Source of the DNA: Rhodobacter capsulatus
GTDB taxonomy: Bacteria; Pseudomonadota; Alphaproteobacteria; Rhodobacterales; Rhodobacteraceae
Assembly: GCF_003254295.1 (NCBI RefSeq)
Contig: NZ_QKZO01000002.1
Span: 1 to 64,000 of the forward strand
Direction of reading: 5' to 3'
DNA length: 64,000 nucleotides
Shown here: positions 30,155-35,888 of the stretch, in pieces
How the letters are laid out: each line of letters begins with the position of its first letter
How positions within the stretch are numbered: position 1 is the first letter of the stretch
The notes under the pieces: model-generated
Told to the model about the DNA's origin: nothing
The model's database searches: none
The model's input: the letters and a program-made list of their open reading frames with translations, nothing else
Program-made: the position numbers and the translations under genes

Positions 30155-31201
30155 ATGACCGAGCGCAAGAATGGCCTGACCTATGCCGATGCAGGCGTGG
30201 ATATCGACGCGGGCAATGCGCTCGTCGAACGGATCAAACCGGCGGCGAAACGCACCAGCCGCCCCGGCACTGTCTCGGGGCTGGGTGGCTTCGGCGCGCT
30301 GTTTGATCTCAAGGCCGCGGGCTACAATGACCCGATCCTTGTCGCCGCGACCGATGGCGTCGGCACCAAGCTGCGCATCGCCATCGACACCGGCGTCGTC
30401 GATACGATCGGCATCGACCTTGTGGCGATGTGCGTGAACGATCTGGTCTGTCAGGGCGCCGAGCCCTTGTTCTTCCTGGATTATTTCGCGACCGGCAAGC
30501 TTGAGGTCGCGCAGGCCGCCACCATCATCGAGGGCATCGCCGAGGGCTGCGCGCAATCGGGCTGCGCGCTGATTGGCGGCGAAACCGCCGAAATGCCGGG
30601 CATGTATGCGAAGGACGATTTCGATCTGGCGGGCTTTGCCGTCGGCGCGATGGAACGCGGCTCGGATCTGCCCGCGGGGGTCGTGGCGGGCGACGTGCTG
30701 TTGGGCCTTGGCTCGAACGGCGTGCATTCGAACGGCTACAGCTTCGTGCGCAAAGTGGTGGAACTGTCGGGCCTTGGCTGGGATGCGGCCTCGCCGTTTT
30801 CCGAGGGCACGCTGGGGCAGGCGCTGCTCGCGCCGACCCGGCTTTACGTGAAACAGGCGCTTTCGGCGATCCGCGCGGGGGGCGTGCATGCGCTCGCCCA
30901 TATCACCGGCGGCGGGCTGACGGAAAACCTGCCGCGCGTGCTGCCGGAAGGGCTGGGTGCGACGATCGATCTGTCCTCCTGGCCGCTGCCGCCGGTCTTC
31001 CGCTGGCTGGCCGAGACCGCGAACATGGCCGAGCCGGAACTGCTCAAGACCTTCAACTGTGGCATCGGCATGATCTGCGTTGTCGATGCGGCGCAGGCCC
31101 CGGCGCTGAAGGCGCTTCTGGAAGCCGCGGGCGAAACCGTGACCGTGATCGGCACCGTGACCGAGGGGCAGGGCGTCGCCTATACGGGCAAGCTGTTGTG
31201 A
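30155..31201 (+). CDS. purM: Phosphoribosylformylglycinamidine cyclo-ligase (AIR synthetase)
   Basis: A 348-residue cytoplasmic enzyme of purine synthesis that closes the imidazole ring to form aminoimidazole ribonucleotide using ATP. Signatures: [19 protein letters not shown] at the N-terminus, [46 protein letters not shown] and [16 protein letters not shown]. It overlaps purN by 4 nt (GTGA), the common purM-purN arrangement in proteobacteria. No obvious operator or riboswitch was found in the 78 bp upstream. Confidence 0.97.
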
Positions 31202-31788
31202 CCACCCGCGTCGCGATCCTGATTTCGGGCAGCGGGTCGAACATGATCCGTCTGGTCGAGGACATGCAGGGCCTGGGCCATGCGACGCCGGTTCTGGTCG
31301 CCTCGAACGACCCGACGGCGGCGGGGATCGACCGCGCCGCGCGTCTGGGCGTGGCGACGGCGGTGATCGATCACCGCCCTTTCGGTAAGGATCGCGCGGC
31401 GTTTGAGGCGGAACTGCTGAAACCGATCCTGATGGCCGAGCCCGATGTTCTGTGCCTTGCGGGCTTCATGCGCGTGCTGACGCCCGAGTTCGTGACGCGC
31501 TTTGCCGGTCGGATGCTGAACATCCACCCGTCGCTTTTGCCGAAATATCCGGGGCTGCACACGCATCAGCGCGCGATCGAGGCGGGCGATGCCGAGGCGG
31601 GCTGCACCGTGCATGAGGTGACACCGGTTCTGGATGACGGCCCGATCCTCGGTCAGGCGCGGGTGCCGGTCGTGGCGGGGGACACCGCCGAAACCCTGGC
31701 TGCCAGGGTTCTGGCGCAGGAACACAAGCTTTACCCCGCCGTGCTGCGCCGCTTCGTGACCGGCAACCGCAGCCGTCTGGATCTCTAG
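31198..31788 (+). CDS. purN: Phosphoribosylglycinamide formyltransferase
   Basis: A 196-residue folate-dependent enzyme that formylates GAR in purine synthesis. Motifs: [33 protein letters not shown], the catalytic Asn/His loop [20 protein letters not shown] and the aspartate in [17 protein letters not shown]. It starts with GTG overlapping the purM stop by 4 nt, so it depends on translational coupling. A ~206-nt structured element begins 16 nt after its TAG, the same distance at which a second copy follows rnd. Confidence 0.97.
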
Positions 31789-31804
31789 GCAGCCAAGCCC
31801 TGTT

Positions 31805-32010
31805 CGGGCGGAGCAGGAAAGGCACGGCCTTTCCCCGCCCGTATCGCAACAGCCGCCGCAAGACCGTTTCCCCAAGCGCAACAGAGGCCAGCGCCCGTCC
31901 CGGCGGGCGAGAAGCGCCCGCCATGGGCGGGGCGGGCGCTGGCCGAGTGCCTGATGCACTCGGCGGTCACGGGGCTGATGTGCCACGTGACCTCGGCGAT
32001 GGCCTCGGTC
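31805..32010 (+). ncRNA. Structured 206-nt element, copy 1 (after purN)
   Basis: No convincing gene occupies the 354-bp purN-rnd gap; its first half is this element. Helices visible on the plus strand: CGGGCGG with CCGCCCG enclosing GGAAAGGC/GCCTTTCC (31805-31841); GGCCAGCGCCCG/CGGGCGCTGGCC (31886-31897 with 31933-31944) enclosing GGCGGGCG/CGCCCGCC around AGAAG; CCGAGTGC/GCACTCGG (31943-31963); GGTCACG/CGTGACC (31965-31992). A second copy at 33314-33520 is about 86 percent identical by hand alignment, with changes that preserve pairing. It could be a stand-alone RNA, a 3'-UTR element or a mobile palindromic repeat; strand and function are inferred. Confidence 0.6.
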
Positions 32011-32142
32011 AAGACGGCGTTGCCTGCCGCCCGGCTCACAACCTTTTGTGCATTCCTGCAACGACACGCTTTCCTTTGTGCGGACAAATGCCTAAACCGA
32101 AGACATGGGCGGGATGACCCCGCGATCCCCGGGAAAGGCACG
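32011..32142. other. Leader region upstream of rnd
   Basis: About 130 bp between element copy 1 and the rnd ATG. It is less GC-rich than its surroundings and contains CTTTTGTGCATT and CTTTGTGCGGA, two similar 11-mers about 31 bp apart. Some promoter activity for rnd is expected here, but I cannot place a -35/-10 pair with confidence. Confidence 0.4.
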
Positions 32143-33297
32143 ATGCAGACGATTACCACCACCGACGCACTGGAGCAGTTCTGCACCCGCGCCAAGGCTG
32201 CCCCCTATGTGACGGTCGATACCGAGTTCCTGCGTGAACGCACCTACTGGTCGAAGCTCTGTCTGGTGCAGATGGCGCTTCCCGGCAAGGACGGCGAGGC
32301 GGTTCTGCTCGATCCGCTGGTCGAAGGCCTGTCGCTCGAACCGCTTTACGACCTCTTTCGCCACCCGGGCACGGTCAAGGTCTTCCACGCCGCCCGGCAG
32401 GATCTGGAGATTTTCTTCACCGAGGCCGGGGTCTTCCCGCTGCCGCTGTTTGACACCCAGGTCGCGGCGATGGTCTGCGGCTTTGGCGAGCAGGTCGGCT
32501 ACGAGACGCTGGTGAAGAAGATCGCCAAGCAATCGCTCGACAAGACCTCGCGCTTCACCGACTGGTCGCGTCGCCCGCTGACCGATGCGCAAAAGGCCTA
32601 TGCGCTGGCCGATGTCACCCATCTGCGAGTGATCTACGAATTCCTCTCGAAAGAGCTGAAGAAATCGGGCCGCGAGCAATGGGTCGAGGAGGAAGAGGCG
32701 ATCCTTCTGAACCCCGAGACCTATATCACCCGCCCCGAGGAAGCCTGGGAACGGGTGAAGACGCGGACGAATTCGGGGCGGTTCATGGCGGTCGTGCGCG
32801 AACTGGCCCGCTTCCGCGAAGCTTACGCGCAGGGCAAGAACATCCCGCGCTCGCGCGTCTTCAAGGATGATGCGCTTTTGGAGCTGGCCTCGACGAAGCC
32901 GGTGTCGCTGGAGGAGCTGGGCAAGTCGCGGCTTTTGCTGCGCGAGGCGCGGCGGGGTGACATTGCCGAGGGCATCATCGCGGCGGTGAAGGCCGGGCTT
33001 GAAACCAAGCCCGAGGATTTCCCGCGCGTGCCCGATGAAGATGCGCAGCTGCAGGTGAACACGGCGCTCGCCGATCTGCTGCGGGTGCTTTTGAAGGCGA
33101 AATCCGAAGAGGCCGGGGTGGCGGCGAAGCTGATCGCCACCGCCTCGGATCTGGACCGGATCGCCGCGGGCAAGCGCGATGTCGGCGCGCTGACCGGCTG
33201 GCGGCTCGATGTCTTTGGCAATGACGCGCTGCGGCTGGCCAAGGGCGAGATCGCGCTGACTGCTGCGGGCGGCTCGGTGCGGGTGGTGCAGGTCTGA
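32143..33297 (+). CDS. rnd: Ribonuclease D
   Basis: A 384-residue 3'-5' exoribonuclease of the DEDD-y class involved in tRNA 3' maturation and RNA turnover. The exonuclease domain shows all motifs: VTVDTEFLRERTYW (DxE), VKVFHAARQDLEIF (second Asp), and ALADVTHLRVIYEFL (final Asp, tyrosine-type). A HRDC-like helical part follows (KTRTNSGRFMAVVRELARFR, then NIPRSRVFKDDALLELASTK). The start at 32143 is preceded by GGGAAAGG; the frame upstream overlaps the structured element and is not used. A structured element lies on each side of the gene, the downstream one 16 nt after the stop. Confidence 0.95.
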   Translation: MQTITTTDALEQFCTRAKAAPYVTVDTEFLRERTYWSKLCLVQMALPGKDGEAVLLDPLVEGLSLEPLYDLFRHPGTVKVFHAARQDLEIFFTEAGVFPLPLFDTQVAAMVCGFGEQVGYETLVKKIAKQSLDKTSRFTDWSRRPLTDAQKAYALADVTHLRVIYEFLSKELKKSGREQWVEEEEAILLNPETYITRPEEAWERVKTRTNSGRFMAVVRELARFREAYAQGKNIPRSRVFKDDALLELASTKPVSLEELGKSRLLLREARRGDIAEGIIAAVKAGLETKPEDFPRVPDEDAQLQVNTALADLLRVLLKAKSEEAGVAAKLIATASDLDRIAAGKRDVGALTGWRLDVFGNDALRLAKGEIALTAAGGSVRVVQV

Positions 33298-33313
33298 ACC
33301 TGCCACGGTTTTT

Positions 33314-33520
33314 CGGGCGGAGAAGGAAAGGCAGCGCCTTTCCCCGCCCGTGTCGTAACCGCTGCAGCACGACCGTTTCCCCAGGCACGACAGAGGCCGG
33401 CGCCTGACCCGGCGGGCGAGAAGCGCCCGCCGAGGGCGGGGCGGGCGCTGGCCGGGGACCTTTGGGCCCCCGGCGGTCCCGGGGCTGATGTGTCGCGTGA
33501 CCTCGGCGATGGCCTCGGTC
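33314..33520 (+). ncRNA. Structured 206-nt element, copy 2 (after rnd)
   Basis: Second copy of the element after purN, again starting 16 nt past a stop codon. The first hairpin is identical except in the bulge (AGAA) and loop (AGC). The large helix has GGCCGGCGCCTG opposite CGGGCGCTGGCC: both changes from copy 1 (A to G opposite T, C to T opposite G) keep wobble pairs if the plus strand is transcribed. The next hairpin has a largely different sequence (CCGGGGACC-TTT-GGGCCCCCGG, 33452-33473) in the same position. A 1-nt indel relative to copy 1 lies in this hairpin, which argues against coding. It ends 17 bp before the uvrD stop on the other strand. Confidence 0.6.
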
Positions 33521-33536
33521 AGATCAGACGGCCGCG

Positions 33537-35888
33537 TCAGAACGGCACGTCGTCGAGCCCCACGGCGGGTTTCAGGAACCCGGCCTTGACATGTTTCGAC
33601 CCGGCTTTCTCGAATTCGATCAAGGCGGTATCGCCTTCAAGGTCGATCACCTCGCCATAGCCGAACTTGACATGGAACACCCGGTCGCCAATGCCGAAGG
33701 CGAGGCTGTCCACCGTCGTCACCGTGCGCGCTTTGAGGCGCGGCGGCGTGCTGGCGCGGCTTTCCATCCGCTTCCAGCCCGGGGAATTGTAGACATCGGC
33801 CTTGGTCGCGCGGCTCTCCAGACTGCCAAAGCCGGTCTGCGTCGCCGCGCCGAAGCCGCCGCCGTAAAGCCCGGGCGGGGTCAGGATTTCGACATGACGG
33901 ACAGGCAATTCATCGATGAAGCGCGAGGGCAGCTGCGACTGCCATTGCCCGTAAACCCGGCGGTTGCCCGCGAAGGAAATCGTGCAAAGCGCCTCGGCCC
34001 GGGTGATGCCCACGTAAGCCAGCCGGCGTTCTTCCTCCAAGGCGCGCAAGCCGCCCTCGTCCAGCGCGCGCTGGCTCGGAAACAGCCCATCTTCCCAGCC
34101 GGGCAGGAAAACCGCGGGAAATTCAAGGCCCTTCGCAGCGTGAAGGGTCATGATCGAGACCTTGTCCTCGGACTGGTCCTTGTCATTGTCCATGATCAGC
34201 GCGACGTGTTCGAGGAAGCCCTGCAGATTCTCGAAGCCTTCCAGCGCCTTGACCAGTTCCTTGAGGTTTTCCAGCCGCCCCGGCGCCTCGGGCGTCTTGT
34301 CGGCCAGCCACATGTCGGTATAACCGCTGTCCTCCAGAATGGTTTCGGCCAGCCGCACATGATCGGCGTTTTCCAGCACCGCCGCATGCCAGCGCCCGAT
34401 GCCGTCGAGGAACGCGCGCAACGCGCCTGCCGCCTTGCCGCCAATCGCGCCCTGTTGCAGCGCGGCTTTCGCGCCCATGACCAGACCGGCTTCGGCCTGA
34501 CGGGCGCAGGTCCGGATCATCGCCTGTGCCTTGTCGCCCAGACCCCGTTTGGGCAGGTTCACCACCCGCTCGAAGGCCAGATCGTCATCGGGGGAAACGG
34601 CGAGGCGGAAATAGGCCATCGCATCGCGGATTTCCTGCCGTTCATAAAACCGCGGTCCGCCGATGACGCGATAGGGCAGGCCGATGGTCAGGAACCGGTC
34701 TTCGAAAGCCCGCATCTGATGGCTGGCGCGGACCAGAATCGCCTGTCCGTTCAACGGGATGGGATCAAGGCCGCGGGTGCCGCGCGACAGGCTCTCGACC
34801 TCTTCGCCGATCCAGCGCGCTTCCTCGTCGCCGTCCCAATGGCCGATCAGTCGCAGCTTTTCGCCGCCCTTTTCCGCCGTCCACAGCTCCTTGCCCAGCC
34901 GGTCGCGGTTGGCGGCGATCAGGCCGGAGGCAGCCGCCAGAATATGTTCGGTCGAGCGGTAGTTCTGTTCCAGCCGCACCACCACCGCGCCGGGAAAATC
35001 CTTTTCGAACCGCAGGATATTGCCCACCTCGGCGCCGCGCCAGCCGTAGATCGACTGGTCGTCATCGCCCACACAGCAGATGTTGCGATGCCCCTGCGCC
35101 AAGAGCCGCAGCCACAGATATTGCGCGGTGTTGGTGTCCTGATATTCGTCGACAAGGATATATTTGAAGCGCCGCTGATAGTCGGCAAGCACGTCGGGGT
35201 GACGCTGAAAGATCGTCACCATGTGAAGCAGCAGATCGCCGAAATCGACGGCGTTCAGCGTGCGCAGGCGGTCCTGATAGGCGGCGTAAAGCTCGGAGCC
35301 GCGGTTGTCGAAATGCGCCGTCTCCTCGCCGCGGACATGCTCGGGCGTCCAGGCGCGGTTCTTCCAGCTGTCGATCAGCCCGGCCAGCTGCCGCGCTGGC
35401 CAGCGTTTTTCGTCCATGTTCGCGGCGATGATCAGCTGTTTCAAAAGCCGGATCTGGTCGTCGGTATCCAGAATCGTGAAGTTCGAGCGCAGCCCGACCA
35501 GTTCCGCGTGACGGCGCAGCTGCTTGACGCAGACCGAGTGGAAGGTGCCCAGCCACGGCATGCCTTCGAGCGTCTGCCCCATCAGACGGCCGATGCGGTC
35601 TTTCATTTCCCGCGCCGCCTTGTTGGTGAAGGTGACGGCCAGAACCTCGTTCGGCCGGGCGCGGCCGGAATGGATCAGATGCGCGATGCGCGAGGTCAGC
35701 GCCTTGGTCTTGCCGGTGCCCGCGCCCGCAAGCATCAGAACGGGGCCGTCGAGCGCCTCGACTGCCCGCCGCTGCGCGTCGTTCAAGCCATCCAGCCAGG
35801 GCGTGCCAACCGGCCCCCGCGCCGCCATCATGGCGCGTTGCGACAGGCTCAGCCCGCCGAAATCGTCATCATCAAGGATACTGCTCAT
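33537..35888 (-). CDS. uvrD: ATP-dependent DNA helicase UvrD/PcrA
   Basis: A 783-residue superfamily I 3'-5' helicase acting in nucleotide-excision and mismatch repair. Motifs: Q/Walker A LNDAQRRAVEALDGPVLMLA then GAGTGKTKAL, KAAREMKDRI (Ia), ILVDEYQDTN (II), CVGDDDQSIYGWRGAE (III), VVRLEQNYRSTEHIL (IV), SIMTLHAAKGLEFPAVFLPG (V) and YVGITRAE (VI). The C-terminus VFHVKFGYGEVIDLEGDTAL is the PcrA-type tail with a Tudor-like fold. An alphaproteobacterial LexA-type box lies about 42 bp upstream of the ATG, so SOS induction is expected. It converges with rnd and element copy 2. Confidence 0.95.
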   Translation of the reverse strand: MSSILDDDDFGGLSLSQRAMMAARGPVGTPWLDGLNDAQRRAVEALDGPVLMLAGAGTGKTKALTSRIAHLIHSGRARPNEVLAVTFTNKAAREMKDRIGRLMGQTLEGMPWLGTFHSVCVKQLRRHAELVGLRSNFTILDTDDQIRLLKQLIIAANMDEKRWPARQLAGLIDSWKNRAWTPEHVRGEETAHFDNRGSELYAAYQDRLRTLNAVDFGDLLLHMVTIFQRHPDVLADYQRRFKYILVDEYQDTNTAQYLWLRLLAQGHRNICCVGDDDQSIYGWRGAEVGNILRFEKDFPGAVVVRLEQNYRSTEHILAAASGLIAANRDRLGKELWTAEKGGEKLRLIGHWDGDEEARWIGEEVESLSRGTRGLDPIPLNGQAILVRASHQMRAFEDRFLTIGLPYRVIGGPRFYERQEIRDAMAYFRLAVSPDDDLAFERVVNLPKRGLGDKAQAMIRTCARQAEAGLVMGAKAALQQGAIGGKAAGALRAFLDGIGRWHAAVLENADHVRLAETILEDSGYTDMWLADKTPEAPGRLENLKELVKALEGFENLQGFLEHVALIMDNDKDQSEDKVSIMTLHAAKGLEFPAVFLPGWEDGLFPSQRALDEGGLRALEEERRLAYVGITRAEALCTISFAGNRRVYGQWQSQLPSRFIDELPVRHVEILTPPGLYGGGFGAATQTGFGSLESRATKADVYNSPGWKRMESRASTPPRLKARTVTTVDSLAFGIGDRVFHVKFGYGEVIDLEGDTALIEFEKAGSKHVKAGFLKPAVGLDDVPF

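Follow-up and report, generated by a model that had tools for sequence, protein, structure and literature searches.

The closest described systems to the element reported here are the REP and BIME palindromes, the REPINs, which are inverted REP doublets, and the HRC-8-4 motif of the Rhodobacterales. REP and BIME sequences (GTAG and CGTC families, in E. coli and Pseudomonas) are described in the accessible part of PMC3733652 as intergenic palindromes with units of 20–40 bp, located downstream of coding regions and mostly between convergent or unidirectional genes. The present element resembles them in being dispersed and extragenic and in its placement (99 convergent, 46 tandem and 4 divergent of 149 copies). 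It differs in that its unit is about 210 nt long with four different hairpins, its consensus ends carry neither GTAG nor CGTC, and the Y1 transposase gene of the REP/RAYT system was not found in the genus (0/18 genomes). REPINs, a form of repeated short extragenic bacterial DNA, are called a family of miniature mobile DNA in the accessible part of PMC3116915. Compared with REPINs by their description, the element occurs as isolated units, and no two of the 165 copies from four genomes of the Rhodobacter capsulatus group lie nearer to each other than 1.3 kb; orientation exchange at conserved sites was not mentioned in the available REPIN abstracts. HRC-8-4 is, in the available excerpts of PMC8632094, a structured, intergenic, Rhodobacterales-restricted motif that is generally an intrinsic terminator stem followed by a U-run, mainly between cco operons. 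The element is likewise structured and intergenic in Rhodobacterales, but it is dispersed and has no U-run. It is not described in those excerpts of the survey, which covers structured RNAs including Rhodobacterales motifs (PMC8632094), and the word Rhodobacter is absent from the main text of the RepRanger paper (PMC12306157). In the open-licence literature, as far as the available texts go and with the older R. capsulatus genome papers outside that scope, no paper described the element or an orientation exchange for any repeat family.

The window (the whole stretch of R. capsulatus DNA that was analysed, 64,000 nt) contains two copies, A and B, which flank an rnd-type gene (Table 1); AIR synthase (purM) was also identified by Pfam among the neighboring genes. 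Both are members of a dispersed, hairpin-rich family of ca. 210 nt that has about 30 to 50 copies per genome in the R. capsulatus group. The first-pass annotation of the window had described twin elements of about 206 nt and about 86% identity, with a common end sequence, the same four helices and a 1-nt indel between them. All of this was borne out: the copies are about 210 nt long and 85–87% identical (85–86% over the element, with aligned blocks of 150 nt and 56 nt that are 87% and 91% identical, respectively), both contain GGCCTCGGTC (32001–32010 and 33511–33520), the four helices are present in each, and the indel is real. The segment holding the long helix and third hairpin of copy A (31881–31970) folded at -65.9 kcal/mol (z = -6.25, equaled by 0/200 shuffles), and the first stretch alone (31805–31880) was unremarkable (z = -1.35, 18/200 shuffles as good).

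Table 1. Positions of the two element copies, their predicted helices and the neighboring genes in the window.
Feature	Positions	Strand	Basis or remark
Element copy A	31803–32012	+	3' of the purN stop codon and 5' of rnd; model match 31805–32011
Hairpin H1, copy A	31805–31841	+	Outer 7 bp, inner 8 bp; fold and covariation
Long helix H2, copy A	31886–31944	+	16 bp enclosing an 8-bp inner hairpin (31902–31922); fold and covariation
Hairpin H3, copy A	31945–31961	+	Fold; just 70% of cells paired across genera
Terminal hairpin H4, copy A	31988–32011	+	Covariation
Element copy B	33312–33521	+	16 nt after the rnd stop codon, 15 nt from the convergent uvrD-type stop codon; model match 33314–33521
Hairpin H1, copy B	33314–33350	+	Covariation
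Long helix H2, copy B	33395–33453	+	Covariation
Terminal hairpin H4, copy B	33498–33521	+	Covariation
purN (formyl transferase), precedes copy A	31198–31788	+	Pfam PF00551
rnd-type ribonuclease (3'-5' exonuclease and HRDC), separates the copies	32143–33297	+	Pfam PF01612, PF00570
UvrD-type helicase, convergent to rnd	33537–35888	-	Pfam PF00580, PF13361

Further copies, which the annotation had proposed to seek in Rhodobacterales genomes, were found both in the same genome and in its relatives. With a cutoff of E 1e-6, a covariance model (R1), built from 32 copies and having its H3 register one column off, matched 43 copies in the genome of the window (G000) and 52, 41 and 32 in the sister species G010, G014 and G009, respectively. 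All but one of the matches listed in these four genomes span model positions 1–208. G014 is R. capsulatus SP108, as judged from identity over 3156 nt to NZ_SWJZ01000017.1. Blastn, with the best 40 of 211 candidates, gave 66 matches in G000: 40 at E 1.2e-30 or better (two covering just ca. 150 nt) and another 26 that were weak (E 0.03 or worse), most of them on the opposite strand of the same copies. At E 1e-5, blastn matches were present in 11 of 61 genomes (G000 and relatives). The element is multi-copy in just 4 of the 18 genomes of the genus, each with at least 13 blastn copies; a fifth, G005, holds one partial copy. In a sample of the bacterial family, at least 11 of 295 genomes matched the model at E 1e-10 (10 of them across the whole model), a lower bound obtained with stricter filters than the copy counts.

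A shorter core pattern was more widespread (at least 119 stretches). Among the 80 core matches listed, the sources are genera that we take to belong to the Rhodobacteraceae or Rhodobacterales, with one titled just Alphaproteobacteria; the core without the rest of the element occurred on two Leisingera plasmids. The exact core pattern had no match in IMG/VR, and the element had none in a phage collection. In other genera, core-only versions (H2 plus one hairpin; L037–L041, L047, L054–L056) were apparently intergenic, and H1 and H4 were not seen in them by eye. One core copy (L048, ca. 1380–1560) has an H2 loop enlarged by more hairpin-like sequence. In some Rhodobacter MAGs (L070, L071, L158, L078) the full element forms direct tandem arrays of 3–4 units with a period of ca. 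240 nt, and at G278:C20:44503-45315 three copies lie within 0.8 kb, the last inverted relative to the other two.

The element begins at its 5' end with H1, which has stems of 7 and 8 bp. A variable spacer separates it from H2, a 16-bp helix that encloses an 8-bp hairpin; H3 follows, and a second variable spacer leads to H4. Covariation was assessed on an alignment (A4) of 87 copies from several genera, for which 71 chosen sources were searched at E 1e-19; weak and cut copies were dropped, save one cut at its 3' end. In A4, 92.5% of cells were paired and double changes occurred in 28 of 61 pairs; aligning the copies to a model that already contained most of these helices biases the result toward them, and relatedness among the sequences raises such counts. 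The covariation score of 0.205 lay beyond both controls (0.086 in shuffles, of which 0/500 reached it, and at most 0.065 when slid). The two H1 helices were paired in 98.7% and 98.6% of cells and H4 in 95.6% while their stems changed; H3, in corrected register, was paired in 70% across genera. The inner stems of H1 were GGAAACGC/GCGTTTCC (34 copies), GGCGAGGC/GCCTCGCC (26), GGAAAGGC/GCCTTTCC (9) and others, and the stems of H4 were TGGCGAAGGC/GCCTTCGCCA (33), TGGCAGGGGC/GCCCCTGCCA (21) and others. In the R. capsulatus group H4 is mostly TGACCTCGGC/GCCTCGGTCA, with two stem mismatches; in many copies from other genera it is a perfect 10-bp stem. Within 32 copies of the R. capsulatus group (A2), doubly changed pairs showed no excess (5 vs. 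5.1 in shuffles), although cells (32 vs. 12.9) and score (0.091 vs. 0.060) did. On the cross-genus covariation, H1, H2 and H4 are well supported and H3 less so; a DNA hairpin would give the same signal as a structured RNA. A long-range helix (GACCG/CGGTC) was paired in just 79.5% of cells across genera and is not claimed.

The two strands folded about equally well (means of -131.2 and -128.3 kcal/mol, n = 40 copies). The annotation had read G-U pairs in the long helix as marking the plus strand as the RNA, an argument that does not generalize. Over the 165 copies, H2 favors G-T over A-C (184 vs. 19), H3 favors A-C over G-T (61 vs. 3), and the direction of the H2 preference does not change between copies that are sense to both neighbors (20:2) and copies that are antisense to both (29:7); the wobble pairs thus do not name an RNA strand. 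The idea of a structured RNA or 3'-UTR family stands insofar as the element is structured, repeated, covarying and located at gene 3' ends, and no match at gathering score was found for the window in Rfam (a permissive search of 31750–33560 gave two matches below that score, neither on the elements). The part that assumed a single transcribed plus strand is unsupported.

Placement was examined on the 165 copies (43 from G000, 51 from G010, 41 from G014 and 30 from G009, one weak G010 match and two weak G009 matches having been dropped), with genes called by a home-made caller that used open frames with GC3 bias. Both neighbors were called for 149 copies, of which 99 lie between convergent genes, 29 in antisense tandem, 17 in sense tandem and 4 in divergent contexts. 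Relative to a baseline of 5 convergent pairs among 42 neighboring gene pairs, which derives from one 64-kb window and the same caller, the convergent excess had a Fisher p of 2.5e-10 by copies and of 7e-7 by distinct sites (32/52 convergent; 18/52 tandem). A stop codon lay within 30 nt of an element end in 144/165 copies, and this held on both sides in 72/99 convergent copies; an overlap of more than 60 nt with a called gene was seen in 5/165. In a second genus (30 loci, four genomes), 12 of 23 copies with both neighbors called were convergent, with looser spacing. The start 16 nt after a stop codon, which the annotation had taken as strict, holds for the purN and rnd copies when counted from the helix starts at 31805 and 33314, and fails as a family rule. 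Most copies are 6–20 nt behind a stop codon; the distance to a neighboring stop has a median of 12 nt for the H1 side and of 13 nt for the H4 side, and its middle half is 9–20 nt (for the latter, n = 119 copies with a sense gene upstream); the exact agreement of the two copies is coincidence.

TTTTT occurred in 1/165 copies on each strand, and a scan of 31700–33650 for intrinsic terminators gave none inside the elements and a terminator-like match overlapping the rnd stop codon, just outside copy B. Lacking a U-tract, the element is not a classical intrinsic terminator. At G000:C3:19632 and G000:C2:92505, a GC hairpin carrying a T-run stands beside the element, so the element is not the sole candidate terminator there.

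Sites were compared among the four species by matching 900-nt flanks; in the genus of G029 (4 genomes, 2 copies) and that of G278 (11 genomes), shared copies were too few for an orientation comparison. The 165 copies fell into 56 sites, of which 23 were occupied in four species, 18 in three, 4 in two and 11 in one. Both orientations occurred at 35 of the 45 shared sites, a difference between species that the first-pass annotation could not see from the window alone. The rnd-uvrD site carries a plus copy in G000, G014 and G009 and an inverted one in G010. The purN-rnd site carries a plus copy in G000 and inverted ones in G010 and G014, and the element is dispensable there, G009 being without it. 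Convergent sites flipped about as often (23/29) as tandem sites (11/14). Among the 23 four-species sites, the eight possible orientation patterns occurred 3, 3, 3, 3, 4, 3, 2 and 2 times (chi-square p = 0.99); orientation ignores phylogeny.

Species pairs at shared sites numbered 100 in the same orientation and 96 inverted. Median element identity was 0.859 for the former, 0.775 for the latter and 0.756 for unrelated sites; 58/100 same-orientation pairs and 0/96 inverted pairs reached 0.85. Over 72 variable columns, 75/100 same-orientation pairs exceeded the 95th percentile of the null, compared with 2/96 inverted pairs. Of the 25 low same-orientation pairs, which may be real replacements or much diverged orthologs, 18 involve G009. 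As judged from these identities, same-orientation copies at a site are mostly orthologs, and inverted ones are unrelated in sequence. Same-orientation similarity dropped with species distance, from 0.825 (G000-G014) to 0.652 (G000-G009), as for ordinary descent. Pairs of unrelated alleles at a site were opposite in 43 cases and in the same orientation in 9 at a threshold of 0.625 (37:3 at 0.55, 38:4 at 0.58 and 46:15 at 0.66), and 24 to 33 of the 45 shared sites, depending on the threshold, had exactly two sequence lineages, one of them plus and the other minus.

The difference between orientations ended close to the element. Flank identity for same-orientation and inverted pairs, respectively, was 0.739 and 0.356 at 1–10 nt, 0.814 and 0.707 at 11–20 nt, 0.889 and 0.887 at 21–40 nt, 0.926 and 0.922 at 41–100 nt, 0.928 and 0.926 at 101–200 nt, and 0.903 and 0.889 at 201–400 nt; in same-orientation copies the sequence directly next to the element is conserved on both sides. 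The unit exchanged would thus be the element plus ca. 10–20 nt. In the median same-orientation pair, conservation is higher in the flanks (0.917) than in the element itself (0.861). At one site, the G000 and G010 elements are 0.99 identical with flanks at 0.94, which suggests a recent exchange at element scale; six other pairs, at the top of the 100, have a larger excess of element over flank (up to 0.938 vs. 0.807).

Several routes to this pattern were tried and rejected. Flipping of the same DNA in place is contradicted by the inverted pairs, none of which reached 0.85 and whose variable columns were at null level. No partial or collinear homology was seen between opposite alleles, spacers copied from neighboring genes showed no excess over the control, and elements swapped between sites showed none over the null. 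Ancestral inverted doublets that lost one arm are disfavored by the conserved immediate flanks, by the similar flip rates at tandem and convergent sites and by the 0 doublets in 165 copies. Introgression of elements along with their flanks is opposed by flank identities that, past 20 nt, are almost the same for either orientation, and the species sharing an orientation were the closest flank pair in just 18 of 59 cases. Flank sites also conflict among themselves (604:390:321).

The explanation that we prefer, with about even confidence, is that these are dispersed, hairpin-rich gene-end elements, REP/BIME-like though outside that family, that function in either orientation and whose occupant is exchangeable at fixed sites. 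An element a few nucleotides behind a stop codon, mostly between convergent genes, would present strong hairpins on either strand and so could mark or protect the transcript 3' end of one or both genes, whichever way it points. With orientation immaterial, a different member of the family, pointing either way, could take the place of the occupant without leaving the site empty; gene ends would gain from a hairpin element irrespective of its direction. The occupants of a site do differ between species in orientation and sequence; a function at transcript ends, the replacement of one occupant by another and its mechanism, and selection that keeps sites occupied are what we infer from this. A target hotspot would also yield shared sites. 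Plain random turnover would not lead one to expect two lineages per site, and the preferred explanation leaves unaccounted for both the excess of opposite over unrelated same-orientation alleles and the survival of both lineages in several species. Random-orientation replacement followed by homogenization of same-orientation alleles through ordinary recombination could produce the same pattern with nothing new needed, as could shared ancestral polymorphism under high local recombination. Tentatively, and with well under even confidence, each gene end may instead have two alternative alleles that are long-lived, unrelated in sequence and inverted relative to each other, and that are exchanged as units of element size (the element plus 10–20 nt) independently of the flanking genes and of the species tree. 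If true, such two-allele exchange would be a novel kind of local DNA exchange, or a balanced polymorphism, driven by hairpin DNA.

The mobile palindromic repeat of the annotation is compatible with these data, and it is possible, if rather doubtful, that the family is a selfish, non-autonomous MITE-like repeat that targets gene 3' ends without a host function, its shared sites being hotspots filled independently. The dispersal of the copies, the short consensus in the flanks at either end of the element, the unrelated sequences of inverted copies at one site and the multi-copy state in so few genus genomes are all consistent with this. The search for a Y1 transposase (PF01797, RAYT) was nevertheless negative in all 18 genus genomes (this class only; the control search was positive in 5/14 known genomes, including E. 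coli), and direct repeats across 163 copies did not exceed those of mispaired controls in length (mean 3.28 vs. 3.25; repeats of at least 5 nt in 17/163 copies vs. 8.5%), so no target duplication was visible. Some transposons make no target duplication. The same-orientation copies further diverge with species distance as by descent, and independent random insertion predicts about equal numbers of unrelated same-orientation and opposite alleles where 9 and 43 were found (3:37 to 15:46 across the thresholds used). A two-state switch, with a plus and a minus occupant taking turns at each site, would explain the sites with exactly one lineage of each orientation, the occurrence of all eight orientation patterns and the small exchanged unit. 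The absent allele, however, was not present elsewhere in the genome as a recognized element (its best match lay above 0.75 in 7/192 cases vs. 8/200 in the null), which leaves the cell without a visible store to switch from, and we regard this reading as very unlikely.

A topological or protein-site role has been proposed for E. coli BIMEs, and a DNA-level site for a nucleoid protein, gyrase or another topological factor between convergent genes would fit the convergent bias, the use of both orientations and wobble pairs that favor no single strand. It is unlikely given the tandem contexts of 18/52 classified sites and stems that change in sequence with pairing kept, which suggests structure rather than sequence recognition. 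Least probable is a family of independently transcribed, trans-acting small RNAs: the strong conserved structure speaks for it, but the spacers vary freely between copies, the elements are placed behind stop codons, and no promoter-like site was found by sigma-70 consensus in 31700–33650, a weak test in this organism.

The family adds a large structured repeat, tied to gene 3' ends, to a model photosynthetic bacterium; to our knowledge, terminators of Rhodobacter are poorly described. Orientation exchange at conserved sites offers a countable system for studying the movement or replacement of short repeats where no transposase is known, and it bears on whether selection at gene ends favors hairpins whatever their direction.

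The purN-rnd interval was also inspected in the 14 other members of the genus: 13 had no blastn match to the element, and in G003 the two genes are on different contigs. Element-less members (L185, L186, L191, L194, L195) have another inverted-repeat-like stretch at this position, common to several species, that consists of variants of GGATATTTGC ... AAATATCCCCGCCGGAGGC and is perhaps a second dispersed repeat family.
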